64,000 bases of DNA, from contig NZ_JAEHJZ010000035.1 in assembly GCF_016469035.1 (NCBI RefSeq), positions 18,675 through 82,674 of the forward strand, in the 5' to 3' direction. Within the stretch, counting starts at the first letter, position 1. The number at the start of each line of letters is the position of its first letter. Positions 24,224 through 44,312 of this stretch are shown piece by piece. Position numbers and translations under genes: made by a program. A model generated the notes under the pieces. The model searched no databases. It was given only the letters and a program-made list of their open reading frames with translations, and was not told the DNA's origin. The stretch is from Gelidibacter salicanalis. Lineage in GTDB: Bacteria > Bacteroidota > Bacteroidia > Flavobacteriales > Flavobacteriaceae.

Positions 24224-24564
24224 CATGTAAAATTCAGATGGATACAGTTATCAGCGAAAGGCAATAATGGATAACTATATAAAATCATATATGCTGAATG
24301 TCAGCAGAATAAAGATATGTTTTTTTTATTGAACAACAATTAATCTTTCTGAAGAACACCTCCAAAAATTAGAATTTCTTGATTATTAATTTTAAAAATC
24401 AGCTACTGAATTTTAAGATAAAGAGATATAGATCTCGTAATATCTCTTCCTCAATTATAATTGTAAAATTGGCACGATTTTTTGTTACGATGTACAAATA
24501 CAATTTACGTTTAGAATCAAATGTTGGAAACATTTAGACTGTTTTTATTTGAGCTTTTTGAAAT
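24224..24564. other. Intergenic stretch with no visible feature
   Basis: AT-rich sequence without a convincing ORF or strong hairpin, between the oriT-like cluster and repeat copy A. Confidence 0.5.
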
Positions 24565-25015
24565 AATTTACTTATTATATCCTGAGCGTTTTCCTTTTCA
24601 TTTGATGTAGCAATACAGTTCTTTTTTAGTCTAAAATTTTAAACTTAACAATAAGAACACAAGAAACCATCATCTACTTCTCCAATTTACTTCCCATAGT
24701 GCCTATCGCTGTTACCTTTCGGATACTGCATCTAAAATTTAGATCGAGTAAGCACTTATAAAAGGGAGGCACGACCGGTTATGCAGTCTGTCTCGAGCTA
24801 AATTTTAAACTTTGTGGAGAAATGGAGTAGTGATCTATTGTATAAGCGGACGCTATTCCAAAGTTGACAAAACTCGATCTCGAGAAAAGATTATAAAAAT
24901 ATTGACCGAATCTTTATACGTTAAATGCAAAAACTTTGGAATTGGATCCAAGACTTTTTTAATGAAGCGCTTTGCCCATAATGGAGCTTTTTGCGGATGG
25001 AGTGGCAATGTGACT
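24565..25015. repeat. Island repeat, copy A
   Basis: About 450 bp are similar (roughly 80-85% by eye) to 39285-39735. The best conserved core runs from CTCCAATTTACTTCCC through GGGAGGCACGACCGGTTATG to GGAGAAATGGA. It contains an inverted repeat AAAATTTAGATCGAG / CTCGAGCTAAATTTT (14 of 15) flanking the core. Reading frames are broken in both copies, so it is probably non-coding or a dead gene. From 25016 to 25354 I see nothing definable. Confidence 0.75.
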
Positions 25016-28850: not shown

Positions 28851-30290
28851 TTATCTTGGATTTCTTTGCATTGAAGGATTATAGTCTAGTTCTATTTGAG
28901 GAATCTGTAAGATGTATCTCGGATCATTTTCAGAAAGAGTGTAAGTTTCGTTATCGTAAGTATGAGTAATTTCAGGCATACCATATCTTCTCAAATCGTA
29001 CCATCTATGAAACTCTCCAAAGAGCTCTCTTCTCCTTTCATCCTTTACCACCTGCACAACTTTTTCTTGGGTATCATAAGTCGTCGTAGAATATTTATAA
29101 TAATCAGACTCAAGTATAAAAGATGCATCAAACTTTGTCTTTCTAATAGTGTTTAAATCCTCCAGTGCATTATCAGGCTGACCCAACAAGGCATATGCTT
29201 CTGCTCGGTTAAGAAACGCCTCTTCAACTCTAAAACCTCTTGTAGGCTCTCCTAGACGATTTGGAAATGGTCTAAACTTAAAATACACCCTGCCTAAAGA
29301 TCCCTTTACATAAGTGAAGTAGTATAATCTCAAATCCCCTGGTTCATAGAGAGAAATTAAATCATCAGAGATAGCCAATGCTCCTGGAATATGAACATAA
29401 TAATACATCTCATTAGATCCGTACTTAAATAATACGTTGTCATTGGCGTCATTGAAATAATGGACTCCTTGACCATAGCCCCAACGTGTTTGAGCAAATT
29501 CCATAGAATTATTAGATATGTCAAAAAGATTGTTATTCAAGCTAATAGTTCGGTCAGCATAGGAAATAACATCTTCATATTTCTTCTGATAAAGAGCCAC
29601 TCGAGAAGCTAGCAAATTAGCTGATACGGGTGTTAGTTTAAACTTTGAAGTAATTCTTTGATCATTGTTTGTCATTAATTGAATGCCCATTTCTAAATCG
29701 GCATTAATTTGATCATAAATCTCCTGCACAGAATTACGTGTATACGACTCTGATTTGACCGTTGGATCTAATTTTAAAGGAACCCCTAAATCAATACTTG
29801 CCGTGCTTTCATTATAGGGCGCAGCATATAAATTTATCAACTTGAAATAAGAAAATGCCCTGAGCGCCATAGCTTCGCCTTTAGTGTAGGCAATAGCTGC
29901 AGCATTACCATTAGCGTCCTCAACGTTATCTACGACCACATTGGCATAATAAATTGCTTTGTAAAGATTTTTCCAAGCTTGGTCATAGCCATTAAACATT
30001 GAATTATGCTCATGGGTACTCTCAAAAGTAAATGGATGTAAAGGATACTCTCCCCGATCAGTGTTTAGGTATCTAATGTCCTGATCATCGGTCATCATCT
30101 CAACGTAATAATCCAATGCAACTATGGTCCCGTAATCTTTAGTTGTTGGGTACCCATAATTTAACAATTCAACATAATCACTAATAGTTTCAGGCTTCAA
30201 TTTATTTTGAGGCTCTTCTTCTAAAGCTTTGTCACAGGATGAAAAAGCCATAAGTATCAAAAAGGAAAATTTTATATATATAGATTTCAT
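28851..30290 (-). CDS. RagB/SusD family nutrient-uptake lipoprotein
   Basis: 479 residues with lipobox LMAFSSCDKA. N-terminal SusD-like helices with TPR pattern (WKNLYKAIYYANVVVDNV; GEAMALRAFSYFKLINLYA), and the C-terminal RagB/SusD signature (EEAFLNRAEAYALLGQPD; VVKDERRRELFGEFHRWYDLRR). It forms the lid of the SusC barrel on the cell surface and captures the substrate. No glycoside hydrolase is nearby; a peptide- or metal-related substrate is as likely as a sugar. Confidence 0.95.
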   Translation of the reverse strand: MKSIYIKFSFLILMAFSSCDKALEEEPQNKLKPETISDYVELLNYGYPTTKDYGTIVALDYYVEMMTDDQDIRYLNTDRGEYPLHPFTFESTHEHNSMFNGYDQAWKNLYKAIYYANVVVDNVEDANGNAAAIAYTKGEAMALRAFSYFKLINLYAAPYNESTASIDLGVPLKLDPTVKSESYTRNSVQEIYDQINADLEMGIQLMTNNDQRITSKFKLTPVSANLLASRVALYQKKYEDVISYADRTISLNNNLFDISNNSMEFAQTRWGYGQGVHYFNDANDNVLFKYGSNEMYYYVHIPGALAISDDLISLYEPGDLRLYYFTYVKGSLGRVYFKFRPFPNRLGEPTRGFRVEEAFLNRAEAYALLGQPDNALEDLNTIRKTKFDASFILESDYYKYSTTTYDTQEKVVQVVKDERRRELFGEFHRWYDLRRYGMPEITHTYDNETYTLSENDPRYILQIPQIELDYNPSMQRNPR

Positions 30291-30307
30291 AGTATTCAGT
30301 TTTTAAA

Positions 30308-33300
30308 TTAAAAGGTCACATTAAAACTCAACATATAAGATGTTGGCAGCGGCAATGATTTATAAGGAAATGTTTCAGGATCATATCCATCCAGGCCTTT
30401 GTCTGCAAACAGAAATAAATTATTGCCTTCCAATTGTACATATGCTCTAGAAAACTTAAGTGCTCTAAGAATACTTTCCGATAAATTGTACTGTAAAGTC
30501 ACATTGCTTAACCTTAAGAAATCACCTTTTACTACACGTATATCACTTTTATTCCAATAGGTTTTGTGGTTGTTTTGACCTGTTTCATTTTTAAGATGTG
30601 GAATATTTGTTGAATTTTCATCACCCGGTTCCCTCCATGCATTGAGAAGTTCTTTATTTAAGTTTTGATCTGGAGAATACATCCATGAAGCTAGTATCTC
30701 CTCCTTTCTAAAATAATTGCCAAAACCGTATGTTAACAGTGCTGAAAGTTTAAAGTTTTTGTATTCAAATAAATTGCTTACCCCCCCCTGATATGGCGCC
30801 TCAATTGGACCATTATAAACCAGATCATCAACTCCAAATTCTAAATCTCTCTTAGCGGTTGTTGTTTCTCCATTAGCCAAATTGAAATGGGCAACACCCT
30901 CTTCGTCAAGGTGACTATAGCTAACAGAGTATAATGAATTTAAAGGTTTACCAACAATTGCAGCATCTGGTTTATATGGGAATGGCGATAGCATTCTAGA
31001 TACATTAGGATCAATATTTACTTTTTTGACTTCATTCTTATTATAAGCAAAGTTTACCGTAGTACTCCAATTGAAATTAGGTTTTGGAGCTCTAATATTT
31101 CTAGTTGTCAACCCGAATTCAATTCCTTTGTTTGACACATCAGCAAAGTTGATTGGTAACGTAGAAAAACCATTTACCTCTGAAATTCTGGTATATGTGA
31201 TTAAATCTTCACTAAGTCGGTCATAAATATCAATGGCTCCTAGAACTCTGTTATTAAATAAAACAAAGTCTAAACCTATATTTGTACTGTAAGTTTTTTC
31301 CCATCTCAAGTCTGGATTGGCAGGAGAGGAAATCGTTAATAGATCTAAATCTGACCAGTAAGCCGGGTTTAGGAAAGATGCCACAATTTGTGGTGTGCTT
31401 TCCGAGTTGGTAGAACCTTGTAATCCATAAGACCCGCGTAAAGACAAGTTGTCAAAAACACTTTCTTTCATAAATTCTTCCTCAATAATGTTCCATCTTC
31501 CAGAAACTGACCAAGCAGGCTCCCATCTATATTTAGGACTAGAACCAAAAAGATTTGATCCATCGTACCTTATATTACCATTGATCACATATTTGTCATA
31601 AATGGAATAGGTCAATACACCAAAATAAGAAGCAGACTTCGTTTTATAATCACGAATTTGCAAGTACGGTGCACCAGCCAATTCTTCTCCTATATTTTCA
31701 CTTGTGGAAATGACCCTTCCTCTATCATGGAGATACCCCCACCCCACGGTATTATCTCCTCGATAATTGTTTACACGATATTCTCCACCTCCGTAGAATT
31801 GCAAAAAATGAACATCAGTCTCAATTGGCGTGTACTCTAGAGCCATACGCGTCATATAATAGTCTTGGAAATTTGAATTTGAAAAAATCACACCTCCTCT
31901 GGGTAGATTACTATCTGCTGGAGCAGGTTCTCCAAAATTAGACCTTCTTATTCCTGCCACTTGATTGGTGTTTTCAGTATAATAGGTTTCATTTAACTGG
32001 CTGCTCTTAGTATAGTTAACAACGCCAAAGACCTTTAAATTATTCAGAATATCAAAATCTAATGAAATTCTTGAGCTTGTGCTATTAGTATTTGCTTCTT
32101 GGTTAGAGTTAGAATATTCGTTCATTATATTGAACAAATAAAAATCACTATGCCCTCTATACATGTTAGGGCTTCCATCGGTATTATAAAGAGGAAACGT
32201 TCTACTTGTATTTATTGCGTAATCAAAAGGATTTGGTGTCGATCTCGTAAAATTTGATATCCCTGCTGGCACGTAACTGTAAGGATAGGAACTTCTATTA
32301 GTTGTGAATGTAGAAAGATAAAACTCTAAATTAAATTTATCTGATAATTGGGTGTTCAACTTTACAGAACCATTATACCTCTGGTTTTTAGTAAGAATGT
32401 CTGTACCATCCTGATTAAGATATGATAATGAAGCATAATAATTAACACTTTTGCTTCCTCCAGACACGTTGAAACTAGTTGTTGTTCCTACGGCGTCCCG
32501 AAACAATTCTTTAAACCAATCCGTGTTATATGTTTGTGCTAACCTTACTTCATCTCCAAATTGTTGCCAATTTTGTAAATCTCTGTTTTTATAGCGGGCA
32601 TAAGCTCCTGCGAGACCTACAGAATTAACGTTGGCGTCAGAGTTATAATACTGCAATCCCGAATCAAAATAAAATTGCTCAATGTCAATTCTCTCCTTTG
32701 AGTTCATCAAGTTAAAATCATTGTATCGGGGTCTTTGAGTCACGCTTGTCCCTACATTGATATTAATAACAGGCTTTCCTTCCCGACCACGTTTAGTGGT
32801 GAGCACAATGACACCTCCTGCAGCACGCACACCGTAAATAGCAGATGCTGAGGCATCTTTTAAAACAGTTATTGATTCTATATCTTGGGGATTAATTCCG
32901 GAGATTGAATTACCAATACGGTTTACTAAATCAGGTGTATTCAGTTCCGCAGGGGTTAATGGCACGGGATCTTCTAATACGACACCATCAACAACCCATA
33001 AAGGCGAAGTATTTCCTGTTAAAGTAGATGTGCCTCTAATTTTCACTATGGGTACAGCTCCGACTTCGCCAGAACTTTTCACAACGGACAGGCCTGGAAT
33101 TTGACCTTGTATTAAATTGTCAATTTGAGGATTCCAAGCAGGAATATCCTTGGTTTTGACTGTGCTAATAGCACCAGTACTCTTTTTCTCTATGATAGTG
33201 TTATAGCCAGTTAAAATGACCTCAGTTAAAGAGGCTACATCAGGAACCATCTTAACATTAATTGTTAATTCGCTCTTCACTTCCAAGGCCTGAGTTTCAA

Positions 33301-33844
33301 ATCCTATTGAAGAGAACGTTAAAAAATCACCCTTTTCCACTTTAATAGAGTAATTTCCATCAAAATCAGTGGAGGTACCCTTGTTGGTGTTTTTCACTAA
33401 AACGGTAACCCCAGGGAGTGGCATATCATTTTCGTCAGTGACTCTTCCTTCAATAGGTTGTTGAACATTGGAGTTTTCTTTATTGTTGACTATTATAATT
33501 GTATTTGTTCCTGAAATTTCGAATTTATAGTCATTATTTGAAAGGCTTTGTCTTAGCAAGTCTGAAACCAAAACCTCCCCCTCAGTTAGATTAATTGTAG
33601 GTGCATCTTTAAACAGGCTTCGAGGATAAATAAACTCATAATCCGTCTGATTCTTTATAATTTTAAAGACTTGATCTATAGTTACGATCTGATCTTTATA
33701 GATGGTAACTTTTTCTTGGGAGAAGGTGTTTTCTGCAGTAAAACTAAAAACAGTTGTACAGAGTAAGAAAATAAAGGTTCTCATAAGTGTAAGGGATAGT
33801 CGTCTTTTAAAAGACAAACAGGTGGTGACTAATTTAATTTCCAT
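30308..33844 (-). CDS. SusC/RagA TonB-linked outer membrane protein with STN domain
   Basis: 1178 residues. The signal peptide is near residues 20-42 (RTFIFLLCTTVFSFTAENTF), then an STN domain (about 55-112, VTIDQVFKIIKNQTDYEFIY) that talks to an anti-sigma factor, a carboxypeptidase-regulatory-like domain (about 130-205, GRVTDENDMPLPGVTVLVKN), the plug (GYNTIIEKKSTGAISTV to ASASAIYGVRAAGGVI) and a long beta-barrel ending in aromatic SFNVTF. The STN domain together with FecR and ECF sigma genes just upstream shows that this transporter is autoregulated by its own substrate through cell-surface signalling. Confidence 0.97.
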   Translation of the reverse strand: MEIKLVTTCLSFKRRLSLTLMRTFIFLLCTTVFSFTAENTFSQEKVTIYKDQIVTIDQVFKIIKNQTDYEFIYPRSLFKDAPTINLTEGEVLVSDLLRQSLSNNDYKFEISGTNTIIIVNNKENSNVQQPIEGRVTDENDMPLPGVTVLVKNTNKGTSTDFDGNYSIKVEKGDFLTFSSIGFETQALEVKSELTINVKMVPDVASLTEVILTGYNTIIEKKSTGAISTVKTKDIPAWNPQIDNLIQGQIPGLSVVKSSGEVGAVPIVKIRGTSTLTGNTSPLWVVDGVVLEDPVPLTPAELNTPDLVNRIGNSISGINPQDIESITVLKDASASAIYGVRAAGGVIVLTTKRGREGKPVININVGTSVTQRPRYNDFNLMNSKERIDIEQFYFDSGLQYYNSDANVNSVGLAGAYARYKNRDLQNWQQFGDEVRLAQTYNTDWFKELFRDAVGTTTSFNVSGGSKSVNYYASLSYLNQDGTDILTKNQRYNGSVKLNTQLSDKFNLEFYLSTFTTNRSSYPYSYVPAGISNFTRSTPNPFDYAINTSRTFPLYNTDGSPNMYRGHSDFYLFNIMNEYSNSNQEANTNSTSSRISLDFDILNNLKVFGVVNYTKSSQLNETYYTENTNQVAGIRRSNFGEPAPADSNLPRGGVIFSNSNFQDYYMTRMALEYTPIETDVHFLQFYGGGEYRVNNYRGDNTVGWGYLHDRGRVISTSENIGEELAGAPYLQIRDYKTKSASYFGVLTYSIYDKYVINGNIRYDGSNLFGSSPKYRWEPAWSVSGRWNIIEEEFMKESVFDNLSLRGSYGLQGSTNSESTPQIVASFLNPAYWSDLDLLTISSPANPDLRWEKTYSTNIGLDFVLFNNRVLGAIDIYDRLSEDLITYTRISEVNGFSTLPINFADVSNKGIEFGLTTRNIRAPKPNFNWSTTVNFAYNKNEVKKVNIDPNVSRMLSPFPYKPDAAIVGKPLNSLYSVSYSHLDEEGVAHFNLANGETTTAKRDLEFGVDDLVYNGPIEAPYQGGVSNLFEYKNFKLSALLTYGFGNYFRKEEILASWMYSPDQNLNKELLNAWREPGDENSTNIPHLKNETGQNNHKTYWNKSDIRVVKGDFLRLSNVTLQYNLSESILRALKFSRAYVQLEGNNLFLFADKGLDGYDPETFPYKSLPLPTSYMLSFNVTF

Positions 33845-33938
33845 AAATTTGCAAGGTGTTAGTTAGACATTAGTTTAATTTTCAAGCTAGAGGGACGAAG
33901 TGAGACATCGGGAAATGATTAGCTTCGTTCTCTCTTTT

Positions 33939-35105
33939 TTATTTTAAAATCACATTTCTATCGCTTATTTCATAACTTTTAATACTGCCGACACTTTTAA
34001 TGTTCTTGAGAATACTCTCGATACTCCTGTCTTTATAAAGAACACCTACAAACTCTACGTTTTCGATGTCTTTATTCTTAAATTCAACATTCATATTATA
34101 CCATCTAGATAAAACAGTCATAATTTCTTTTAAAGATTTATCTTCAAAACTGAAAACTCCATCTCTCCAAGAAACTTCATTGTAAACATTCACATTAGAA
34201 ATTTGTGCTGTGTTATCCAAAACATTATAAGCGTATTGTTGATCTGGCTGCAAAGTTTGGCTATTATCAGAATGTAAAACCAAAACTTTACCTTCAACCA
34301 ATGTTGTATAAATGGTTGCTTCATCTTTATAAGCCTTCACATTGAACTGGGTTCCAACAACTTCAACCTTCTGACCTCGAGAAAATACTTGAAAAACGTC
34401 ACCATTGTGCAACGAACTAGGCGATACTTCAAAATATGCCTCTCCATATACGAGTTCAACTTTACGAGAAGTTCCTTCAATAAAATTGATAGGATATTTT
34501 AATTGGCTTTCTGAATTGAGCCATACTGTAGTGTTATCAGATAATTTGACTACAAACTGACCACCTCTTGGAATGGTCAAATAGTTATATTGAATGACAT
34601 TGTTGGTGACAACACTTTGAGAATCGACTGCATTATAAACAATTTCGTCACCGTTGCTGCTGATATTTTGACTTTCATATAAGGTGCCTTTTTCTAATAA
34701 AACGATGGAACCGTTCTCTAAAGTCAAAGTGGCCTTATTGGTGCCAATTTGAATATTATTTTCAACTACCTTTAGATCTTTTGTTCCACTTGGGACGTCA
34801 CGATTTAGAACGCTATAAGCAATAAAACCTCCTATTAAAATCACAGCCGCGTACTTTAATAGATTTGCATTAAAAACAGATAAAACCTTCTTTCTTTTAA
34901 AGCTTCCAATACCTAGCTTTTTCTGGATATTATTGTAGATTTTTTCTTCTACAACTCCCCTATCTTCATCTTGATTTTCCCAAGTGTTGATTTCCTGATG
35001 GCTTTGGAAAAAATTTAGAAGTGCCTTAATCTCCTTCATATTGGCTTTTCCAGACAACAATTGCTCTATAAGAATTAGGAACTTTCTTTTATTATTTATG
35101 TTCAT
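33939..35105 (-). CDS. FecR family anti-sigma factor
   Basis: 388 residues. A cytoplasmic N-terminus (about 1-80) binds the sigma factor, one membrane helix (LLKYAAVILIGGFIAYSVL, about 87-105), a periplasmic FecR domain (about 175-270; IPRGGQFVVKLSDNTTVWLN, YGEAYFEV) and a C-terminal DUF4974 domain (SLKEIMTVLSRWYNMNVEF) that contacts the STN domain of SusC. It transmits substrate binding at the outer membrane to the sigma factor. It is encoded 75 bp downstream of sigma and 94 bp upstream of susC. Confidence 0.95.
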   Translation of the reverse strand: MNINNKRKFLILIEQLLSGKANMKEIKALLNFFQSHQEINTWENQDEDRGVVEEKIYNNIQKKLGIGSFKRKKVLSVFNANLLKYAAVILIGGFIAYSVLNRDVPSGTKDLKVVENNIQIGTNKATLTLENGSIVLLEKGTLYESQNISSNGDEIVYNAVDSQSVVTNNVIQYNYLTIPRGGQFVVKLSDNTTVWLNSESQLKYPINFIEGTSRKVELVYGEAYFEVSPSSLHNGDVFQVFSRGQKVEVVGTQFNVKAYKDEATIYTTLVEGKVLVLHSDNSQTLQPDQQYAYNVLDNTAQISNVNVYNEVSWRDGVFSFEDKSLKEIMTVLSRWYNMNVEFKNKDIENVEFVGVLYKDRSIESILKNIKSVGSIKSYEISDRNVILK

Positions 35106-35180
35106 TTTTTTCTTTCAAAGGGGTCATACATAATAATGACGAAAAAAAACACTTGAACACCTGCTCAATAGCTAAAAAAA

Positions 35181-35777
35181 TTAATTATGGTAATGGTAGA
35201 GAATAAAAATGATATATGAAGTAGTTGATATAGAACTCAAAGAGCCTCTTAAAATCTTAAGAGCTTTTGTTATATGACCTTCAACGGTACGTGGAGAAAT
35301 ATTTAATTTGCTGGCGATTTCTTTATGACTGAGATCCTCATTCCTACTTAAATTAAAAACAATTCGGCACTTTTCCGGAAGTTCGCTTATAATGGTCTCA
35401 AGGTATTCATGAAGTTCCTTGTCCATTAGTTTGGTTTCGGGATTAGATGTCTGTATGCGTTCATTAAAGTTCTCCAACAAATCAACTGTAATAGCAGATT
35501 TGTTTTTTCGGAAATAATCATATGTTTTATATATGGCACTTGTATAGAGATAACTTTTTAAAGACACCTTTATGTCAAGTCTTTCGCGATTTCTCCAGAT
35601 TTTCACAAAAACATCCTGCACAATATCTTCGCTGATTTGTTTGTTATTGACAAGATTATATACCGCAAAATACATTAATTCCCAATGTTCCTTATAGACT
35701 GAGGCTAATGCAGATTCATCATTGTTGTTTAGACGATGAATTAAATCTCTTTCTTTTAGACTAAGTTTAGAAGACAT
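35181..35777 (-). CDS. ECF sigma factor of the SusCD system
   Basis: 198 residues. Region 2 (YFAVYNLVNNKQISEDIVQDVFVKIW) and region 4 (LPEKCRIVFNLSRNEDLSHKEIASKLNISPRTVEGH) are both complete. It is the Bacteroidota SusC-linked ECF type, and the hydrophobic tail (TSYIIFILYHYHN) is a common feature of that subtype. Released from FecR when the transporter is loaded, it would drive transcription of the operon from 35105 down to 25355. Compare it with the second, unusual sigma factor at 37078, which is not preceded or followed by a FecR. Confidence 0.95.
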   Translation of the reverse strand: MSSKLSLKERDLIHRLNNNDESALASVYKEHWELMYFAVYNLVNNKQISEDIVQDVFVKIWRNRERLDIKVSLKSYLYTSAIYKTYDYFRKNKSAITVDLLENFNERIQTSNPETKLMDKELHEYLETIISELPEKCRIVFNLSRNEDLSHKEIASKLNISPRTVEGHITKALKILRGSLSSISTTSYIIFILYHYHN

Positions 35778-36418
35778 GAATAGAAGTTTATGTGAACGAA
35801 GTTAAAAAAATTAACGTATTTGTAACATTAAACACAAAAAAACCTATTTATTTAGATAAAGCTTGTGGTTTTCAAGAGTTCAAATTTTTAAAAAAAATTG
35901 AAATAAATGTCCAGTTTATTTAGTAAAAAACTGCGCGTTTTAAAGAAGGCAAACAACTTTCATTTATCATCTATTATATTTTAGGATAATCATTTTTAAA
36001 AGCTGTTTTAAGGTTATTTGGAAAACCGACCGCACGGTTTAAAGTATTCAAAATGCACAAACTAATAGTTTGTGTATAGTAAATTTTTTAAACATACCTT
36101 TTAGAGAAAAAAAGTAAAGTTTAAATAAATCTAGCCTATTGAGTTTCTATTGCTTTTGATTAAAATAGTCCATCTACCACCGAAGCTGACTTCGTCAAAG
36201 TCATTATTAAATGAATAGGATACTATTCATGACCAGCAGTTGCGGTTCAGAAAACTGGAAATTTTGATGATAGAATCCAACTCAAAAAAATAATGTCGTC
36301 CGGCTAAAACTATAGTAACCACAGCGCATTATGACAAACATAATTAGCCCAAAATACATTTGTTAATTTACAACTCTTTCGGAAGTTTTAGGTCTTTATA
36401 TGCAAACAACATTTTAAA
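35778..36418. other. 640-bp intergenic region with one operator-like palindrome
   Basis: No gene is seen. CACAAACT-AAT-AGTTTGTG at 36056-36074 is a perfect 8-bp inverted repeat with a 3-nt spacer and could bind the small helix-turn-helix protein encoded next door. The promoter of the SusCD regulatory operon should lie just right of 35777. Confidence 0.45.
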
Positions 36419-36667
36419 TTAATTTTCTAATTCTTCCAAAGAAAAATTAAAACTATATAATTCCATTGGATGAATACCAAGACCTTTTGCAATAGGTAAG
36501 ATTGTTGTGATTTTAGGTTCATTCTCATCAGCAAGGATTCTATAAATAGCTTTATTTTCAATGTTCCCAATTGAGGCAATAGTGGCGATATCTCGGTCAC
36601 TTTCTTCAATTAATTTTCTTAAATGTTCACTGAATGCTTTTCGATATCCTTTTCTCCACTCTTTCAT
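36419..36667 (-). CDS. Small Cro/C1-type helix-turn-helix regulator
   Basis: 82 residues from the ATG at 36667 (MKEWRKGYRKAFSEHLRKLI); an in-frame GTG at 36682 adds five residues and is less likely. LRKLIEESDRDIATIASIGNIENKAIYRILADENEPKITT follows the XRE pattern with the recognition helix around NKAIYRIL, and LPIAKGLGIHPMELYSF is the usual end. It stands alone between the SusCD regulators and the sigma/Cas12f-like pair and may regulate either side. Confidence 0.75.
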   Translation of the reverse strand: MKEWRKGYRKAFSEHLRKLIEESDRDIATIASIGNIENKAIYRILADENEPKITTILPIAKGLGIHPMELYSFNFSLEELEN

Positions 36668-36800
36668 TAGCACAATATCCACCCAAACGATCGAAAAAAA
36701 TTGTCAAGTTTGACACTTTTAAATAATTTTTCTTATATTTACTCCATATTAATATATTTGCGATACTTCTTAAAGTAAAATATTAGAAGCATTCGTTTTG

Positions 36801-36922
36801 AATCTCGCCTTTGGAAACTGGTAATTTTTAGGAAACGAGAGGATAAGTGAAATGCTCACGACCCGGGGCGTGGGCTCACTTATTGTTTCCAGGTATACCA
36901 GTACCTCAAAGGCATAAGTTGA
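36801..36922 (+). ncRNA. Structured RNA candidate upstream of the sigma/Cas12f-like pair
   Basis: Nested pairing spans the region: GCCTTTG (36807) with CAAAGGC (36907), CTGGTA (36818) with TACCAG (36896), GGAAAC (36831) with GTTTCC (36885), ATAAGTGA (36843) with TCACTTAT (36876), CACG (36857) with CGTG (36869). It ends its inner arm with GCGTGGGCTCACTT (36868-36881), a 14-mer repeated exactly downstream of the gene pair. It could be a guide-RNA gene, or an RNA leader of the sigma gene whose start is 155 bp further on. Strand is inferred from the gene direction. The 36683-36800 flank holds no gene. Confidence 0.55.
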
Positions 36923-37077
36923 GTCTTCACGTCCTTTTTGTTTGTATAAAAAAGGTCATGCTTCTCTACTTTTTTCAAAGCACCTTCTCTTTATAAATCA
37001 TAAGAACTCGCTTTAGTAATTAAATATGAATCCAATTTAATTCTGGTGGAGGCTACCACCCATTTAAATGAGGTCTT

Positions 37078-37863
37078 ATGGTGCACACTAATTTTGAACA
37101 ATTAAAAAACGGCTGTCATGCAGCCTTTGCGGAAATCCATGCCCAATACAGTAGGCGTATCTTCTGGGTGGGCAAGCGAATGATCAACGATGATTTTGTT
37201 GTGGAATCATTGGTCCAGGATACTTTTTTAAAGTTGTGGATCCATATGGACCGTATTGAAACGCCTGAGCATATTTTCTTTTTTCTCCGGTTCGTGATGA
37301 AAAGGGAATGTATCTCCTATTATACACGGCCGAGAAACAGGTTTTTCAGAAAAGTCAATTCGTTAGAGTCCTATGACAATTTCCAGGACTATCTGGCGGG
37401 ATACGATCCCATCCATGACACTGAAAATCTCAATGTCCAAAAATATGAACAGGCTAATTTCGATCGCATTAAAAAAATACTGCCCCTACTCAATGCGGAA
37501 AAACGACACTTGATCGATCTCTGTTTAAAATACGGCTTTCAATATAAACCCATTTCGAAACTCATGGGAACCAGCATTACCGAAACCAGCAACAAGGTAA
37601 AAATGGCCATTAGGGATATCCGGAGCATCATTAATCAGGGGAACCTGTTGGAATCCACAAAAAAACCAAGAAATATAGTGAAAATCCAAGGATCAATAAC
37701 CGAGGCTCAAAAGCATATATTGGAACTCCGCTGTGAGGAAAAGCATTCCTTTGAGACCATTGCAACCGCGCTCAACCTTTCCCAAAAGGTAGTGCACCGA
37801 GAATTCCTGACGGCGTATAAATTACTACAGGAGAAACACCAACAACAATCACAATTTGCTTGA
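37078..37863 (+). CDS. ECF-like sigma factor with two region-4-like domains, partner of a dead Cas12f
   Basis: 261 residues, about 70 longer than a usual ECF sigma. Region 2 covers about 8-85 (AFAEIHAQYSRRIFWVGKRM; VESLVQDTFLKLW). A first region-4-like helix-turn-helix spans about 125-185 (LLNAEKRHLIDLCLKYGFQYKPISKLMG...). A second, about 205-252, repeats the pattern (ITEAQKHILELRCEEKHSFETIATALNLSQKVVH). No FecR or other anti-sigma gene is adjacent. The nuclease-dead Cas12f-like gene begins one base after its stop, so they are co-translated. Proposed role: sigma subunit brought to a promoter by an RNA-guided partner rather than by -35/-10 reading. This follows recently described RNA-guided transcription in Bacteroidota; the link here is inference. 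Confidence 0.8.
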   Translation: MVHTNFEQLKNGCHAAFAEIHAQYSRRIFWVGKRMINDDFVVESLVQDTFLKLWIHMDRIETPEHIFFFLRFVMKRECISYYTRPRNRFFRKVNSLESYDNFQDYLAGYDPIHDTENLNVQKYEQANFDRIKKILPLLNAEKRHLIDLCLKYGFQYKPISKLMGTSITETSNKVKMAIRDIRSIINQGNLLESTKKPRNIVKIQGSITEAQKHILELRCEEKHSFETIATALNLSQKVVHREFLTAYKLLQEKHQQQSQFA

Positions 37864-37864
37864 T

Positions 37865-38962
37865 ATGGAAAAGACCACACTAAAACTAACGCGAAAAATC
37901 CAGCTCTTGGTAGACCTCCCCACCAAGGAAGAACGAAAGGCGGCACTGGATATGCTCTACCAATGGCAGAACAGATGCTTTAGGGCAGCTAACCTTATCG
38001 TTACCCATCTGTATGTACAGGAAATGATCAAGGAGTTCTTTTATCTATCGGAAGGCATAAAGTACAAACTGACTGATGAAAAAAAAGACGAATCCGGCAT
38101 CTTGCAACGTTCGCGAATCAACACCACCTATCGTGTGGTATCAGACCGCTTTAAGGGTGAAGTCCCCACAAACATATTATCAAATCTGAGTAATACCTTG
38201 CTTGCCTCCTTTAATAAAAATAGACCGGAATATTGGAGTGGCGAACGTTCCCTACAAAACTTCAGACGGGACATGGCATTTCCATTTGGCAAGGAGTGTA
38301 TTAGTAAGTTGACGTTTGATGCCGAAAGAAATGCGTTCTGCTTTAGGTTGTTCCAGATTCCTTTTCGCACCTATTTAGGGAAGGATCATAGTGACAAACG
38401 GAAACTGCTCGAACGTGTCATAAAAGGAGAGACCAAACTTTGTATGTCACACATCAAACTGAAGGATGGCAAAATTTTCTGGCTCCCAATCTTCGAGATT
38501 GAGAAGGAAAACCACGTCCTAAAAGCGGAGGTAATTGCAGAGGCCTCATTGTCCATAGAATATCCCATTGTCGTAAAGGCCAATAACACCAAGCTTACCA
38601 TTGGCACCAAAGAAGAGTTTCTGTACAGGAGGCTAGCCATACAGGCAGCCCAGAATAGAGCACAGGTTGGAGCCGCCTTTTCCAGATCGGGCAAAGGAAT
38701 CAAAAGAAAATTAAAGGCCGTGGATAGGCTCAGTGACGCAGAAAGTAAATATGTCCGCCATCGTATACATGTTTATAGCAGACGGCTGATCGACTTTTGC
38801 ATAAAGAATCAGGCAGGAACACTCCTAATATTAAATCTTGAGGACCAGGTTGAATTAGCTAAAGAGGAAGCGTTTGTATTAAGGAATTGGAGCTATTATG
38901 ACTTGATGGCCAAAATAAAATACAAGGCTGAAAAAGCTGGTATTGAAATTATTGTCGATTGA
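37865..38962 (+). CDS. Nuclease-dead TnpB/Cas12f-like protein
   Basis: 365 residues from the ATG at 37865 (a TTG at 37856 would overlap the sigma gene). N-terminal ~1-220 has the REC/WED-type layout; DGKIFWLPIFEIEK is a typical WED strand pair. The RuvC part starts near 235: where active proteins have GIDLG, this has IEYPIVVKANN, so the first catalytic aspartate is lost. The bridge-helix-like basic stretch (GKGIKRKLKAVDRL), a RuvC-II-like ILNLEDQ and the family end NWSYYDLMAKIKYKAEKAGIEIIVD follow. The protein then stops exactly where the CxxC zinc finger and RuvC-III DxNAA should come. It should still bind guide RNA and DNA but not cut. Confidence 0.82.
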   Translation: MEKTTLKLTRKIQLLVDLPTKEERKAALDMLYQWQNRCFRAANLIVTHLYVQEMIKEFFYLSEGIKYKLTDEKKDESGILQRSRINTTYRVVSDRFKGEVPTNILSNLSNTLLASFNKNRPEYWSGERSLQNFRRDMAFPFGKECISKLTFDAERNAFCFRLFQIPFRTYLGKDHSDKRKLLERVIKGETKLCMSHIKLKDGKIFWLPIFEIEKENHVLKAEVIAEASLSIEYPIVVKANNTKLTIGTKEEFLYRRLAIQAAQNRAQVGAAFSRSGKGIKRKLKAVDRLSDAESKYVRHRIHVYSRRLIDFCIKNQAGTLLILNLEDQVELAKEEAFVLRNWSYYDLMAKIKYKAEKAGIEIIVD

Positions 38963-38974
38963 CAAATTATATAA

Positions 38975-39080
38975 CGAGGGTGCTTGTAAACCCGTAGGGT
39001 GAGGTCATTGGCACTCACTGAATGCGTAAAGCATATACAACGCGTGGGCTCACTTTTTATGATAAGCCTGAACTAATGAT
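38975..39080 (+). ncRNA. Candidate guide RNA downstream of the Cas12f-like gene
   Basis: It begins 12 bp after the stop codon. Stems: GGGT/ACCC (38978-38981, 38990-38993), GTGAG (38999-39003) able to pair with CTCAC at 39014 or 39049, and ATGC-GTAAA-GCAT (39022-39034). It then has GCGTGGGCTCACTT (39042-39055), identical to 36868-36881. In Cas12-type guides the scaffold is 5' and the guide 3', so the guide would be about TTTATGATAAGCCTGAACTA (39056-39075). Scaffold limits are approximate. Confidence 0.55.
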
Positions 39081-39284
39081 TTAACAAAAAATTACGGATT
39101 TATTATTCGTTATCAGAGGGACGATACGAAATAATCGTATTTTCCCAAATGGAATCTCATGGGCGTGAGCAGGAAACCCGTTTTGCTCTCGACTTGAACC
39201 ATCTTGTGCCCACATTTTGCATCATCTGAACCCTCCAGAATATAACGTCAAGTGGGCATACTAATTATGGTATGTTTTCTTTGT

Positions 39285-39735
39285 AATAATTTACTTATTA
39301 TATCCTGAGCGTTTTCCTTTTATGGTACTGCTGAATTTCGCTTTTTCTTTAGCCCTCCAATATAATCCTAACAACGAGAACACAACAAACTATCATCTAC
39401 ATCTCCAATTTACTTCCCATAGTGCCTATCGCTGTTACCTTACGGATACTACATCCAAAATTTCGATCGAGTAAGGACTTATAAAAGGGAGGCACGACCG
39501 GTTATGCAGTCTGTCTCGAGCTAAATTTTAAACTTTGTGGAGAAATGGAATGGTGATCTCTTGTTAAGCGGACGCTATTCCAAAGTTGACCAATCTCAAT
39601 TGCGAGAAATCATTATTAAAATACTGACCGAATCTTTATACGGAAAATCCTAAACTTTGGAATTGGGTCCAAGACTTTTTTAATGAAGCGCTTTGCCCGT
39701 AATGGAGCTTTTCGCGAAATGGAGTGGCAATGGGC
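39285..39735. repeat. Island repeat, copy B
   Basis: Partner of 24565-25015, in the same orientation. Differences between copies include all base types (for example TTTCGG/TTACGG, GCATCT/ACATCC), so they are ordinary drift. The inverted repeat around the core is kept (AAAATTTCGATCGAG / CTCGAGCTAAATTTT). A small ORF at 39693-39908 begins inside the repeat and is not trusted. From 39736 to 40007 no gene is seen. Confidence 0.75.
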
Positions 39736-40007
39736 TGAAAGGACCAAACGCTAAATCGAAAAATTTATGGAAGGTATGGAGCAGACTTGAATTCAAAGTT
39801 GATTTGACAATGTATTTCGATCAGTTGCCAAAAAATCTTGGGAAATACCAGAAATACATTTTTCTCTTCGGAAGGCAGAATCCTGCTTGGTTCTTTAACG
39901 CATACTAAAAATCCTTAGAAGATATTATTTCCTATAATTATCTTAATTTATGGATATGCTCTCAATTCTTTTTATATGAATTCCAATTCAATAACATGGT
40001 CAGTAAT

Positions 40008-41510
40008 TTAAACTAGCCAAAATGGCTTACCATATAACCTCATTATTGGCCATTCAAGAATATTTTCATAAGGATATTCCTTAATGGCATTTCTTATCAT
40101 TTGTTGATTTGCCTTGCCCAATAATAATTTACAGCATAATTCAAATACCTTAGATTCTTTATTTCTATTTAAAACTTCTACAATTTGGATCTCTGCTTTA
40201 TCGGACATAGGAATATTCCTATGTCTAACTATTTGGTAAAAATTGACCAAAGCTATATCCTTATGGATTTGGTCAGGAGCGGTGTGATAATAAGATTGTG
40301 CAAAATCCTTCACCCTATCCCAATTTATTTTGCCTTCAATACCCAAATGTATTAAATCCAGTAAATGTTCTTCAGAATTAGTAAAAAAATTAGATGCTTG
40401 TTCATTTCTTTGTTGAATACTTCTAATTAAAATATTTAAATTATTTTCTCCAATGCCAAAAGTTTTTATTTTCAAATTCAAGTCATCTGATAATCCACTT
40501 TTATTGAATCCTTTCAAGTCTCTGTCTAATTGATAAACCCATTCAAAAAAAGCAATAGAAAGATTCTCATCACTGTTCCATTTATCAGCAAAATTGTCGG
40601 GATCCTCTCCGAATTTCGGAATGTCTGCAGGATTTCGAATGAGCCATTTCTCATTTTCATAATCCAATATATTATCAACCTCTAAATATCCATATCTAAC
40701 TAAAAATTTATGCCTCTTCTTTACGTAATTAATAAAATCTTGTATTGTATTAAGTATGTTATTGCTTTTATTTACTTTGGTCGTTATTGTCGTAATTATT
40801 ATAGAAATTGGCCGATTGTCCTTTTTTGAAAAACCAACATCTCGATGACGTTTCATTATTTGAATAGCACGTTGTAATGCAGTCCTGATTAACTGTTTAG
40901 GCACATTTTCAACTGTTGAAAATAATTCCCTATTAGATTCGAATATTGCCCTTTTTTCAGTTTGAATAAATTCTGTAGAATAAACATTCTTTGATTTAAA
41001 CCAGTAATAGTAGCCTTTAGGATTACATGTCGACCAAGTATATCTATTATTTTCTTGGTTGGTAATATCAATTTTGTATGCTACATCACTATTCGATGGC
41101 AATGCTGGCAAAATATCAATATGAAATCCAGGACGCCCCTCTTCAGAAGCGTATTTAATAGTCCAGCATCTTCTACCTTCATCATCAAGCATTCTTTTAT
41201 AATCGCTATTTTCTTTTAATCTATTGCCAATATCATTTTTTAAAACTTTTGCATATTTTGACGGATTAATTTTAGTAAGTTCACATACTTGATCAATATC
41301 AAATTCTCCATCTTTATCATCCTTATATGGACGAACTACGGTGCCTAATCTAAATGAACCTTGTAAGTATACGTCTGGATGGCACCCAGACTCGTAAGTT
41401 CCGCCTTTTAACCAATTTTTTGTACTATTAAACCGTTCCTGAGCTTTCTTAAAATCTGAGGGTGATATATCCAAATACTGTGAGATTTGATGTAAAATTT
41501 CTTCTTCCAT
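40008..41510 (-). CDS. Second CD-NTase of the CBASS locus
   Basis: 500 residues. The nucleotidyltransferase signature is complete: GSFRLGTVVRP (about 50-60), EFDIDQVCEL (two catalytic Asp), and GFHIDILPALP with the third. These enzymes make cyclic di- or trinucleotide alarms in response to phage. It follows the patatin gene by 10 bp and is last in the operon. Having a second cyclase in a CBASS operon is unusual. It is only distantly like the one at 43029 and carries an additional ~150-residue helical C-terminus (LLDLIHLGIEGKINWDRVKDFAQ...) that could be an inhibitor/sensor or effector-related domain. Confidence 0.85.
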   Translation of the reverse strand: MEEEILHQISQYLDISPSDFKKAQERFNSTKNWLKGGTYESGCHPDVYLQGSFRLGTVVRPYKDDKDGEFDIDQVCELTKINPSKYAKVLKNDIGNRLKENSDYKRMLDDEGRRCWTIKYASEEGRPGFHIDILPALPSNSDVAYKIDITNQENNRYTWSTCNPKGYYYWFKSKNVYSTEFIQTEKRAIFESNRELFSTVENVPKQLIRTALQRAIQIMKRHRDVGFSKKDNRPISIIITTITTKVNKSNNILNTIQDFINYVKKRHKFLVRYGYLEVDNILDYENEKWLIRNPADIPKFGEDPDNFADKWNSDENLSIAFFEWVYQLDRDLKGFNKSGLSDDLNLKIKTFGIGENNLNILIRSIQQRNEQASNFFTNSEEHLLDLIHLGIEGKINWDRVKDFAQSYYHTAPDQIHKDIALVNFYQIVRHRNIPMSDKAEIQIVEVLNRNKESKVFELCCKLLLGKANQQMIRNAIKEYPYENILEWPIMRLYGKPFWLV

Positions 41511-41520
41511 AAAGTTAATT

Positions 41521-42573
41521 TTAATAAAAATGGCTCTTTAATATGTGACTACCCTTTTCATGAAACTCTACCATAGCTAATTCTGCAAAATTCTTTATCC
41601 TTTGAGGTCTTTTCTCATCCATTTCAATATAATCATCCTCACATAGAATTACATTAATGCGATCGTATACAAAATTAGGGTTATCAATTTCTGTCTTGTC
41701 TATACCTTGGTGTAAGAGACTAATATAATTTTCTACCAACTGTGACTGGCTTTGCATAAATAAATCTATCAATCTTTTTCTGCCATTTTTTACCATCCAA
41801 TAATAGAGACCCCATTTTTTTCTCTCTGAGTCCCCTTCAGTGAATTTTTTATAACCAGTGCCTATGGATAAAACCTCCAAATCCTTTAAATCCTTTCCAA
41901 ATGCTTTCAATCCTTCAATCACGCCAATTAAAGTAGGATTATTCGCCATTATACCACCATCTACTTTATTATTAAATGGTCTATGCATGCCATCTAAATC
42001 TAAATATTCAGAAGAGTAAGGATCAAAATATGTTGGAGCCGCTGATGTTGCCATTGCAGCCTTGTAGGCCGGGATATGTAAATCTCTTTTAAAACTAGGA
42101 TGGTAAGGAGATTTAAGAACGCTCGGATTCCCCTTAATCATATCATATATTGGAATGGCAACGTGTGTCAAACAGTCATTTAGTCTTGGGTCATCATCAC
42201 CTTGAAAATATTCTTTAAATTTATTTCTGACCAAATCTTCTAATACTTCTCTTTTATGCGTAGCCCAAAAGATTTGCCTAAAAAAAGAATAGATTTTTCC
42301 TAGTTTAGAATACTTTGTCTTTCTGAATATTTTATCAGCGTTCTCTATATAAAGCTCATATATTTCTTGTGCAGGTATCCCAAGAGATAAAGCTAATGCA
42401 ATAATTCCTCCTGTTGATGTGCCAGTTATTAATTGAAAATGGTCTTTAATTTTAGTTTTGCCATCATTCCTTTTAGCCAACTCTTGCTCTATCAAGGACA
42501 AATAATATGCAGGAAAGACTCCTTTGATTCCTCCTCCATCAATGGAGAGAATTTTAAATTTTTCGTTATTCAT
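41521..42573 (-). CDS. capV: CBASS patatin-like phospholipase effector (CapV-like)
   Basis: 350 residues. Patatin motifs: oxyanion hole DGGGIKG (about 11-17), nucleophile elbow GTSTGG (about 51-56) and the DGGIMANNP segment giving the catalytic Asp. In CBASS, a cyclic nucleotide made by the CD-NTase switches on this lipase, which degrades the inner membrane and kills the infected cell. The gene overlaps the E2-like gene by 8 bp and sits between two CD-NTase genes. Confidence 0.93.
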   Translation of the reverse strand: MNNEKFKILSIDGGGIKGVFPAYYLSLIEQELAKRNDGKTKIKDHFQLITGTSTGGIIALALSLGIPAQEIYELYIENADKIFRKTKYSKLGKIYSFFRQIFWATHKREVLEDLVRNKFKEYFQGDDDPRLNDCLTHVAIPIYDMIKGNPSVLKSPYHPSFKRDLHIPAYKAAMATSAAPTYFDPYSSEYLDLDGMHRPFNNKVDGGIMANNPTLIGVIEGLKAFGKDLKDLEVLSIGTGYKKFTEGDSERKKWGLYYWMVKNGRKRLIDLFMQSQSQLVENYISLLHQGIDKTEIDNPNFVYDRINVILCEDDYIEMDEKRPQRIKNFAELAMVEFHEKGSHILKSHFY

Positions 42574-43039
42574 CCTTAAAAATTTTATCTAATGTTTCAT
42601 TTGGATACTCATTATGTCCACCACCATACCATTTCCCTTCAGCTAACCAAAGCTCGTAATAATATAACCATTCACTCGCCCAAGGAATGATTGTATTTAC
42701 AATTCTCATATTTGGCTTCCATTCCCGTTTTGAAGGCGAATACAAGCATAACTTTTGCTTGTCCGAATCATAAACATGTGGTAGTTTTTTTCTGTTCGGT
42801 GCTAATTTTAGAATTTTGTCAATTACATAGACTTCAGTGTATAAATTCCTTTTGTAAATAATCTTTATTTTATATTTTTCACTTAAGGGTGTTGGCTGCA
42901 ATTCTATAGATATTTCAAAACTATTCCAGCTTTTCTTTAGAACCTTTGTATTTGGGAAAGCCTGCTTTAATATTTGCAGTTGTAGATAAGCAGGCATTCC
43001 AAAATGTTTTTTCTTTCTTCTGAAGAATTTACTTGCCAT
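42566..43039 (-). CDS. CBASS E2-like ubiquitin-conjugating-fold protein
   Basis: 157 residues from the ATG at 43039; the TTG at 43051 is an alternative. LPHVYDSDKQKLCLYSPSKR holds the probable catalytic Cys, and IIPWASEWLYYYELWLAEGKW followed by GGGHNEYP is the typical end of the E2-like protein of type II-short CBASS. It is thought to conjugate or prime the CD-NTase through its C-terminus; no E1 or JAB gene is present, which defines the short type. It overlaps the CD-NTase gene by 11 nt and the patatin gene by 8 nt. Confidence 0.85.
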   Translation of the reverse strand: MASKFFRRKKKHFGMPAYLQLQILKQAFPNTKVLKKSWNSFEISIELQPTPLSEKYKIKIIYKRNLYTEVYVIDKILKLAPNRKKLPHVYDSDKQKLCLYSPSKREWKPNMRIVNTIIPWASEWLYYYELWLAEGKWYGGGHNEYPNETLDKIFKDE

Positions 43040-44312
43040 CTTTCCCCTCAAAATTGTGTTCTAGCACTTTCGAACCTACAGCACCTAAAAAACCTGTTTC
43101 TGTTGCCATTTTTCTACGACCCACATTTCTCTCCATAGTACTTACTTTACCATAATTAGCAAAAGCTTTATTGGTTACTGTTTTCCCATACATATCAGAC
43201 ATAGACTCACTTATATTTTGCAAACCTACACCCTGACTATTTCGAAGAATCTTTAGGTCTTCCTCAAGTTTGTCTAGCCATAAATAAAAATAGTCTTCTT
43301 TTTGTTTCACAAAACTCCACTTATCAGCGAAATTTTCTCCTGCATTATCCTCACTTGGCATATTAACTGGATTAGCAACCCATTTTTCCAATTTACCGGT
43401 TTCTGGATTTTCTCTTTCCTCAATTAAACCTCTCATTTTCATGACAATATTCGTGTACGCATCAATGATGTTTTCACTTTTGTCATATGCTCTACTCGCT
43501 AAGGTTGTTATGATTATTGAAATAGGCTTATTCTCACTATCGAATTTCTCTGAAGAAAACATAATATCTCTATGTCTTTTCAAAAGTTGAACTACCCTTT
43601 GCAACGGTAATTTTTCAGACTCAAAAACCCTAATTGGATCCACGGACTCCTTTAAACTAAAAATTCGTTCACTGCTCAATAAAGCCTTTTCAAAAAACCA
43701 TTTTGCATACCCGAAAGGATTGCTTTTTAGCCAATTTTCTACATCTCTATCTGTGTTATAACCATTTTTTTCCCTGTCAGTGATTCTCATAGCCAAATTG
43801 TCTGTATCCAAACCGCTTCCTGTTCCGAAACTCTTTTCTAAGAGTATGGTTAGTCCTTCGTCTGCAAAAGAGGGTAAAATGTCCATATGATAACCAGCCG
43901 CATCAGCATATTTCAAAGTCCAACATCTTCTACCACCTTCCTCATAATATTCCTTATCGTCGTATTCCATTAACATATAGTCATATGTGCCGTGTTCTTT
44001 AAGTCTATTACCAATAGACTGTTTTAAATCCCTTTGACTCCACGAATCTGGCTTTCTGTTTAATCTACATACTAAGTCTACATCAATGTCACCATCTTCA
44101 CAGATTGGTTTTATCAATGTTCCCAACATAAAAGACCCCTGAGGTATAATTTTAGGACTAAATTCTTTGAGTGGTGAGGTTTCATCTGCTAACCAATTAC
44201 CTACCGTTTCGTAGCTTTTTACTACCTCTTCATATTGTGTTCTAGAAATATCAAGCTCTTTACCTAATCCTTTTAAAATCTTGCTAATTTCGGTTTTATA
44301 TACAATTTCCAT
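43029..44312 (-). CDS. CBASS CD-NTase (first cyclase)
   Basis: 427 residues. GSFMLGTLIKP (about 59-69), DGDIDVDLVCRL (catalytic Asp pair) and GYHMDILPSF (third Asp) are present, so the enzyme should be active. The C-terminus ends LEHNFEGKDGK, close to the exposed C-terminal (H-x-F-x-G) tail of CD-NTases that E2-type partners join to targets. It is the standard CBASS cyclase, with the E2-like gene directly behind it in an 11-nt overlap. Confidence 0.92.
   Translation of the reverse strand: MEIVYKTEISKILKGLGKELDISRTQYEEVVKSYETVGNWLADETSPLKEFSPKIIPQGSFMLGTLIKPICEDGDIDVDLVCRLNRKPDSWSQRDLKQSIGNRLKEHGTYDYMLMEYDDKEYYEEGGRRCWTLKYADAAGYHMDILPSFADEGLTILLEKSFGTGSGLDTDNLAMRITDREKNGYNTDRDVENWLKSNPFGYAKWFFEKALLSSERIFSLKESVDPIRVFESEKLPLQRVVQLLKRHRDIMFSSEKFDSENKPISIIITTLASRAYDKSENIIDAYTNIVMKMRGLIEERENPETGKLEKWVANPVNMPSEDNAGENFADKWSFVKQKEDYFYLWLDKLEEDLKILRNSQGVGLQNISESMSDMYGKTVTNKAFANYGKVSTMERNVGRRKMATETGFLGAVGSKVLEHNFEGKDGK

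Follow-up and report, generated by a model that had tools for sequence, protein, structure and literature searches.

A sigma factor gene and a gene for a nuclease-dead Cas12f protein (dcas12f) adjoin each other in a 64,000-nucleotide stretch of the Gelidibacter salicanalis genome (the window), and we consider it probable that the locus encodes an RNA-guided transcription system, dCas12f-sigmaE, that would bypass the terminator-like end of a structured leader RNA (element E) in front of its own genes and in front of a SusC operon elsewhere in the genome. The parts follow one another on one strand in the order element E, sigma gene, dcas12f, guide RNA (Table 1). An RNA-guided transcription system had been proposed in the preliminary description of this DNA, which passed over the gene for the guide RNA, the target-like match of the guide and the leader RNA; the proposal is now supported by orthology to a protein pair in the PDB, by a scaffold in the expected place and by a guide match preceded by a 5' G. 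The gene pair is a further orthologue of a recently solved class, and what is new is the guide, its match to the system's own leader and the leader RNA E. A testable wiring is thereby gained, consisting of the place of the guide RNA, the two best-matched genomic sites and a widespread leader with two states that links RNA-guided transcription to SusC operons; it could tell what role such systems have in their hosts and why many of them share a near-identical guide.

Table 1. Features of the sigma-dcas12f locus, in window positions
Feature	Position	Strand	Basis or remark
Small helix-turn-helix-like gene, divergent from E	36419..36682	-	Pfam HTH_3 E=0.0013, below the curated cut-off
Promoter element TAnnTTTG of E	36753..36760	+	TATATTTG at this place
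Element E, structured leader RNA	36765..36939	+	Covariance model and covariation; 5' end placed from the promoter
Guide match with 5' G	36867..36884	+	In the switch strand of E; match at 36868-36884, G at 36867
3' arm of E, then T5, terminator-like	36914..36939	+	Pairs with the switch strand (fold H2)
Sigma gene	37078..37863	+	ECF-type, 261 aa, additional C-terminal region-4-like helix-turn-helix
Nuclease-dead Cas12f gene (dcas12f)	37865..38962	+	365 aa; PDB and PADLOC matches, catalytic positions lost
Guide-RNA scaffold	38978..39041	+	Three hairpins, ends AUACAAC; covariance model E=1.9e-13, window copy part of the model
Guide segment GCGTGGGCTCACTTTTTATG	39042..39061	+	Assigned by position 3' of the scaffold; presumed length

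A sigma factor gene is paired with a gene for a Cas12f-like protein

As the preliminary description had it, the Cas12f-like gene begins one base after the sigma stop, with its ATG at 37865 following the TGA of the sigma open reading frame (37078-37863). The sigma protein matches TIGR02937 (E=3.5e-21), with the ECF stretch at residues 16-183, and in Pfam both Sigma70_r2 and Sigma70_r4, with a region-4-like domain at residues 207-240, past the ECF stretch; a PDB sequence search aligned it to chain C of 9n9q, named 'RpoE' (E=1.8e-102). The second protein matches PADLOC Cas12f at E=2.8e-53 and, under the respective cut-offs, NCBIfam guided_TnpB (E=1.2e-15; 57.7 of 100 bits) and, weakly, Pfam OrfB_IS605 (E=0.011). 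Its PDB matches are the 'Nuclease-deactivated Cas12f' entries 9n9c, 9n9m, 9n9o and 9n9q (E=4.2e-186), and in 9n9q the protein was deposited together with 'RpoE'. Judged by these scores, its kinship to Cas12f/TnpB is far beyond chance. The dCas12f of Flagellimonas (Allomuricauda) taeanensis (locus L040) is identical to the deposited chain at 364 of 364 residues, and the window pair shares 58% (sigma) and 74% (dCas12f) identity with that of F. taeanensis. By these comparisons, the two window genes are the orthologues of those for dCas12f and RpoE of F. taeanensis, whose structures are in the PDB.

The catalytic residues of the nuclease are lost in the alignment to PDB 9nzo ('Cas12f Effector'), in which they were assigned by reading the motifs and not by a tool. 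The position of the RuvC-I Asp (motif VGVDLGI) aligns to Ser228 of AEASLSI, and that of the RuvC-II Glu (motif QMERL) aligns to Leu323. The preliminary description had read the Asp position at VVKANN, which this alignment places about ten residues later; that the protein is nuclease-dead, as it also stated, agrees with the alignment. Of 45 aligned sequences (357-366 aa as cut by the search matches), 43 have Ser at position 228, 1 has Ala and 1 has Thr, and 0 have Glu at position 323. The early end of the protein had likewise been recognized correctly: dCas12f aligns only to residue 414 of the 506 residues of 9nzo, and the absent C-terminal part would be the zinc ribbon and RuvC-III of this family. 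As aligned, the window protein does not have the intact RuvC triad and zinc ribbon of an active CRISPR Cas12f nuclease.

A dcas12f match was found in 13 of 299 genomes of the same family, with the genome of the window counted, and 2 of the 13 (G021 and G266) hold just a fragment or broken copy. A scan of named genomes returned 189 relatives; the best 80 of the 189 make up the 80 named loci referred to below, and their titles name mostly flavobacterial genera, with Echinicola among them too.

Genomic neighborhood

The system adjoins a SusCD operon (28851-35777) that has its own ECF sigma and FecR-like gene, as judged by eye. Direct repeats of 455 bp, 87% identical, lie at 24557-25010 and 39280-39732 and bracket a 14-kb stretch containing the SusCD operon and sigma-dcas12f, which may mark a duplication or insertion boundary. 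Near the left repeat, a 444-aa open reading frame (21520-22854) is tyrosine-type integrase-like by eye. A CBASS-like defence cluster, with two cyclase-like proteins, a patatin-like phospholipase and an E2-like protein, lies at 40008-44312.

A predicted guide RNA gene follows dcas12f

Directly past the dcas12f stop lies a scaffold that is kept in 81 of 81 loci (the window and the 80 named loci), where a covariance model built from 37 of the copies finds 125 copies in all. Compensatory changes were counted in 14 cells of the three scaffold hairpins, where shuffling gave 3.0 on average. From the covariance model and these compensatory changes, a guide RNA is predicted to be encoded beside dcas12f. 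The sequence 3' of the scaffold's AUACAAC differs among loci, and by its position this variable segment is probably the guide. Several loci have two to six scaffolds; the genome of the window has one at E<=1.

Scaffold arrangements of other kinds were seen at two of the loci. At L043 (11114-11223), a scaffold is followed by about 30 bases, a partial repeat again ending CATATACAAC and then a second guide, an arrangement that resembles a two-spacer mini-array. At L062 (16157-16260), an orphan scaffold about 5 kb from dcas12f carries about 17 extra bases ahead of the GACGTGGGTTCACTTATT sequence, and these look like a newly inserted guide. This extra segment (about AACTGACGACTACAC) is seen again, with at most one mismatch, at four other E loci (L109, L115, L137 and L172, of F. 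taeanensis, G021, G250 and G301), each time between E and SusC; the chance expectation is about 0.18 over the DNA examined. A search of its own genome gave the segment's own place, a single further site with 2 mismatches and 6 hits for the control, which is not beyond chance.

Element E is a conserved RNA with two covarying folds

The covariance model of E, of which the window copy is a part, hits the window at 36802-36926 with an E-value of 2.5e-26. Among the 111 entries in which the GAAGC anchor was found, some of them the same copy twice, 97 have the motif TAnnTTTG at a similar distance ahead of E (shuffled mean 2.6, maximum 7); we take this motif to be the Bacteroidota-type -7 promoter element.

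The folds of E were drawn from the same chosen copies in which their covariation was counted (32 in alignment A3 and 29 in A5), and the shuffled controls ignore the relatedness of the copies. Mean column identity among the 32 copies is 78%. Fold H1 is a nested hairpin of 32 pairs; pairs are present in 90.1% of cells (29 copies), and there are 103 compensatory cells against 33.5 shuffled, with slid controls at 9-27. Further pair types of H1, one of five measures, came to 41 against 38.3 shuffled, a value that 89 of 500 shuffles reached. In fold H2, the switch strand (GGCGTGGGCTC.CTTAT) pairs with the 3' arm instead, in 98.6% of cells (32 copies), with 16 compensatory cells against 2.4 shuffled. 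By this covariation, E is a structured RNA that is conserved and can adopt either of two mutually exclusive folds, one of them terminator-like. Mean computed energies of the 32 copies are -44.1 (H1), -48.1 (H2) and -51.5 (minimum) kcal/mol, and in single copies the gap between H1 and H2 is up to about 19 kcal/mol: H1 is favored by about 9 kcal/mol in the window copy and H2 by about 14 kcal/mol in a second copy of the same genome.

A T-run follows the H2 arm in 33 of 46 E copies at sigma loci and in 15 of 22 others, counted without a chance control and with slightly different patterns for the two sets. The sigma set comprises 46 of 48 E hits, leaving out the window copy and a weak hit at L035, and the other set 22 of the 29 loci L113-L141, from which six sigma-dcas12f loci and L125 were taken away. 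In its folds, the T-run and TAnnTTTG, E resembles a leader RNA that has a promoter of its own and ends in the manner of an attenuator. Rfam searches at E<=1 gave no match in window positions 36000-40100 or at the E copies of L163, L203, L102 and L040. No description of an E-like leader was found among the literature matches listed, in a search that had preprints and most subscription papers outside it, so E may already be described. Other flavobacterial structured leaders are described in PMC9723704.

E heads SusC operons as well as sigma-dcas12f operons

E is present in 55 of 299 family genomes, with up to seven copies per genome. All 13 dcas12f genomes carry it (P=8e-11), and 10 of the 13, sorted by hand from coordinates, have E away from the dcas12f operon, compared with 42 of the 286 other genomes (P=2e-6). 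Among the named loci, E was found in 48 of 81, and 4 of the 33 E-less loci have less than 1.3 kb of upstream sequence. It is in 27 of the 29 genomes searched through their loci; these include 23 of the 25 genomes without E at the searched dcas12f locus, which have it elsewhere, with some of those copies standing at a second sigma-dcas12f operon.

When 29 E loci were read by eye (those that the search returned as loci, not all matches), 18 led to a SusC-like gene, 6 to sigma-dcas12f and 5 to something else or nothing, and a small antisense open reading frame, helix-turn-helix-like by eye, was upstream in 29 of 29. Pfam found a TonB plug and CarbopepD_reg_2 in all four SusC-like proteins submitted (L104, L115, L116 and L122); of four antisense proteins (window, L104, L116 and L122), two pass the cut-off and two, including that of the window, fail. 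At L118 (1858-2886), a HEPN-domain protein (E=9e-5) comes after E in place of SusC, and at L121 it is a protein of 111 aa with no Pfam match. That E is conserved only as a guide target was rejected because E heads sigma-dcas12f operons with unrelated guides and is present in 42 of the 286 genomes in which no dcas12f match was found.

The guide matches the switch strand of the system's own leader

The guide GCGTGGGCTCACTTTTTATG is identical to the switch strand of the window E at 16 of 17 positions, with the first 14 contiguous from position 1, and the match is preceded by a G, which makes this a candidate target site. A second guide-RNA copy was rejected as the reading of the match at 36868, since the one scaffold that the model detects in the window stands 3' of dcas12f and it detects none at E. 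A window scan with the first 15 bases of the guide, allowing at most 3 mismatches and at most 1 within the first 8, gave two places, the leader of the system itself and a site at 15752 with 3 mismatches. The adjoining SusCD operon (28851-33844), which the preliminary description had named as a neighbour of the pair, is not supported as the target: the scan found no guide match there.

Across the genome of the window, the site pattern with at most 3 mismatches occurs at four places, namely the 36868 site, the guide gene, C242:202108 and C78:3554 (3 mismatches), and the reversed pattern at 0. C242:202108 sits in the second E copy, on another contig and on the same strand as a SusC gene (TonB plug E=1.5e-21) whose start lies about 620 bp beyond that E. 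This second E mismatches the guide at position 1, so it has no contiguous match from position 1.

Similar matches recur among related loci. Of 59 guides from loci whose E was located by pattern, 11 agree with the E of their own locus over at least 9 bases, counted from position 1 and preceded by a 5' G, where shuffled guides average 0.01, and 18 of 71 guides agree in this way with E copies in their genome (shuffled mean 0.02); many of these loci are related, and the counts are therefore not independent. The guides were also compared with E copies swapped between genomes, using hand-listed segments after scaffold hits in 31 genomes; for the genome of the window, G094, G254 and G125 the E copies were limited to those away from dcas12f, and for the others all E found were taken. 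Own-genome matches numbered 18 of 71 guides against a swapped mean of 18.9 at 9 bases or more, 7 against 10.4 at 11 or more and 3 against 4.7 at 13 or more. Swapped copies match equally, and there is thus no sign of genome-by-genome coevolution of guide and E, an idea that was rejected on this negative test although single cases are suggestive. In G306, the GGCGTGTCATCC guide and an E variant have 12 bases in common. These comparisons point to a likeness between a conserved class of guides and an element that is itself conserved. Many guides (those of F. taeanensis, Echinicola and one Leeuwenhoekiella class) match E by 2-4 bases only.

Some guides match DNA between E and SusC. The F. taeanensis guide has a 10-base match with a 5' G between its second E and SusC, a match that by itself (3 mismatches in 18) is near chance genome-wide, where the reversed pattern has 2 hits. 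For Leeuwenhoekiella guides, matches of 10 bases lie immediately upstream of SusC. In the same hand-listed segments and 31 genomes, guide matches of at least 9 bases between E and SusC were found in 4 of 169 guide-locus pairs (shuffled mean 0.17, maximum 1 in 30 rounds), by a test devised after the F. taeanensis and Leeuwenhoekiella matches were known and with 3 of the 4 matches from Leeuwenhoekiella.

Proposed mechanism and alternatives

We propose that dCas12f binds the guide RNA and finds DNA in which a G is followed by a guide match, and that the bound protein would bring sigma and RNA polymerase, with transcription starting at a set distance downstream. An activating function is suggested by analogy to the solved relative and to a report on the class. 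The F. taeanensis system is reported to bind its guide RNA, to recruit sigma and polymerase and to start transcription a set distance downstream of the site that it occupies; a 2025 preprint reportedly describes guide-RNA-directed transcription by the dCas12f-sigma class, with a minimal 5'-G motif. In the genome of the window, the best targets would be the switch strand of the system's own E and, with mismatches, the second E upstream of SusC. E RNA made from its own promoter can fold into the terminator-like hairpin; because the guide match is the switch strand and the RNA-guided start would lie past it, the resulting transcript could not form that hairpin. The system would in this way switch itself on by positive feedback and bypass the attenuator at the SusC operon, so that E would act as a brake and dCas12f-sigmaE as its bypass, and the F. 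taeanensis site, downstream of an E, would fit likewise. We put forward only tentatively, and judge somewhat less than evenly likely, the wider account in which E is an undescribed Flavobacteriaceae attenuator heading SusC operons and dCas12f-sigmaE, with its switch-strand guide, is its self-sustaining bypass, exerting control over nutrient uptake.

It is unlikely that the guide of a dCas12f-sigmaE system instead pairs with E RNA at the 5' or 3' arm, altering termination in trans, or mimics the switch strand. Such pairing would be open to it, since a guide equal to the switch strand can pair with both arms of E RNA, and a match quality that does not track genome is in keeping with this; however, the corresponding RNA segment of the solved relative is reported to be a DNA guide, guides unlike E occupy the same position, and the matches begin at guide position 1 after a G, which RNA pairing would not need, with the qualification that the own-locus test itself required the position-1 start and the 5' G. 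We give slightly less weight again to repression, in which the complex would form a roadblock on E and shut its own operon. Against a roadblock stand the conserved sigma partner and the deposition of the solved relative with RpoE; for it, the match lies downstream of the promoter motif of E, where a bound complex could block elongation, and the nuclease-dead relative TldR represses by RNA-guided binding (PMC13418256). Decay of the pair into cargo without function is very improbable: the two family genomes with only a fragment or broken gene stand against 44 dCas12f homologues that align at near full length, with 62-81% identity to the window protein and 80% mean column identity, and against the scaffold kept at every one of the 81 loci. 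Guided activation past the terminator-like hairpin of E is the preferred reading.

Comparison with known systems

TldR proteins are nuclease-dead, TnpB-like RNA-guided repressors (PMC13418256) and resemble the window system in that an inactivated RuvC nuclease is reused for RNA-guided gene control; they differ in that TldR represses, whereas the partner in the window is a sigma factor, which argues for activation. The type V-F Cas12f nucleases of CRISPR systems (PDB 9nzo and others) have a homologous core, but the window protein is without the catalytic residues, by alignment, and the C-terminus, and its scaffold and guide lie directly after the gene. Transcription attenuators and riboswitches are similar to E in its two exclusive covarying folds and in the T-run that follows one of them in about two-thirds of copies; E differs from them in that the copies searched against Rfam gave no match at E<=1 and in a switch strand that equals a CRISPR-like guide. 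The F. taeanensis dCas12f-sigmaE is similar to the window system in both full-length proteins (74% and 58% identity), in gene order, in the downstream scaffold and in the E upstream of sigma. The two differ in where the guide points: that of F. taeanensis matches a site between another E and SusC, whereas the window guide matches its own E.
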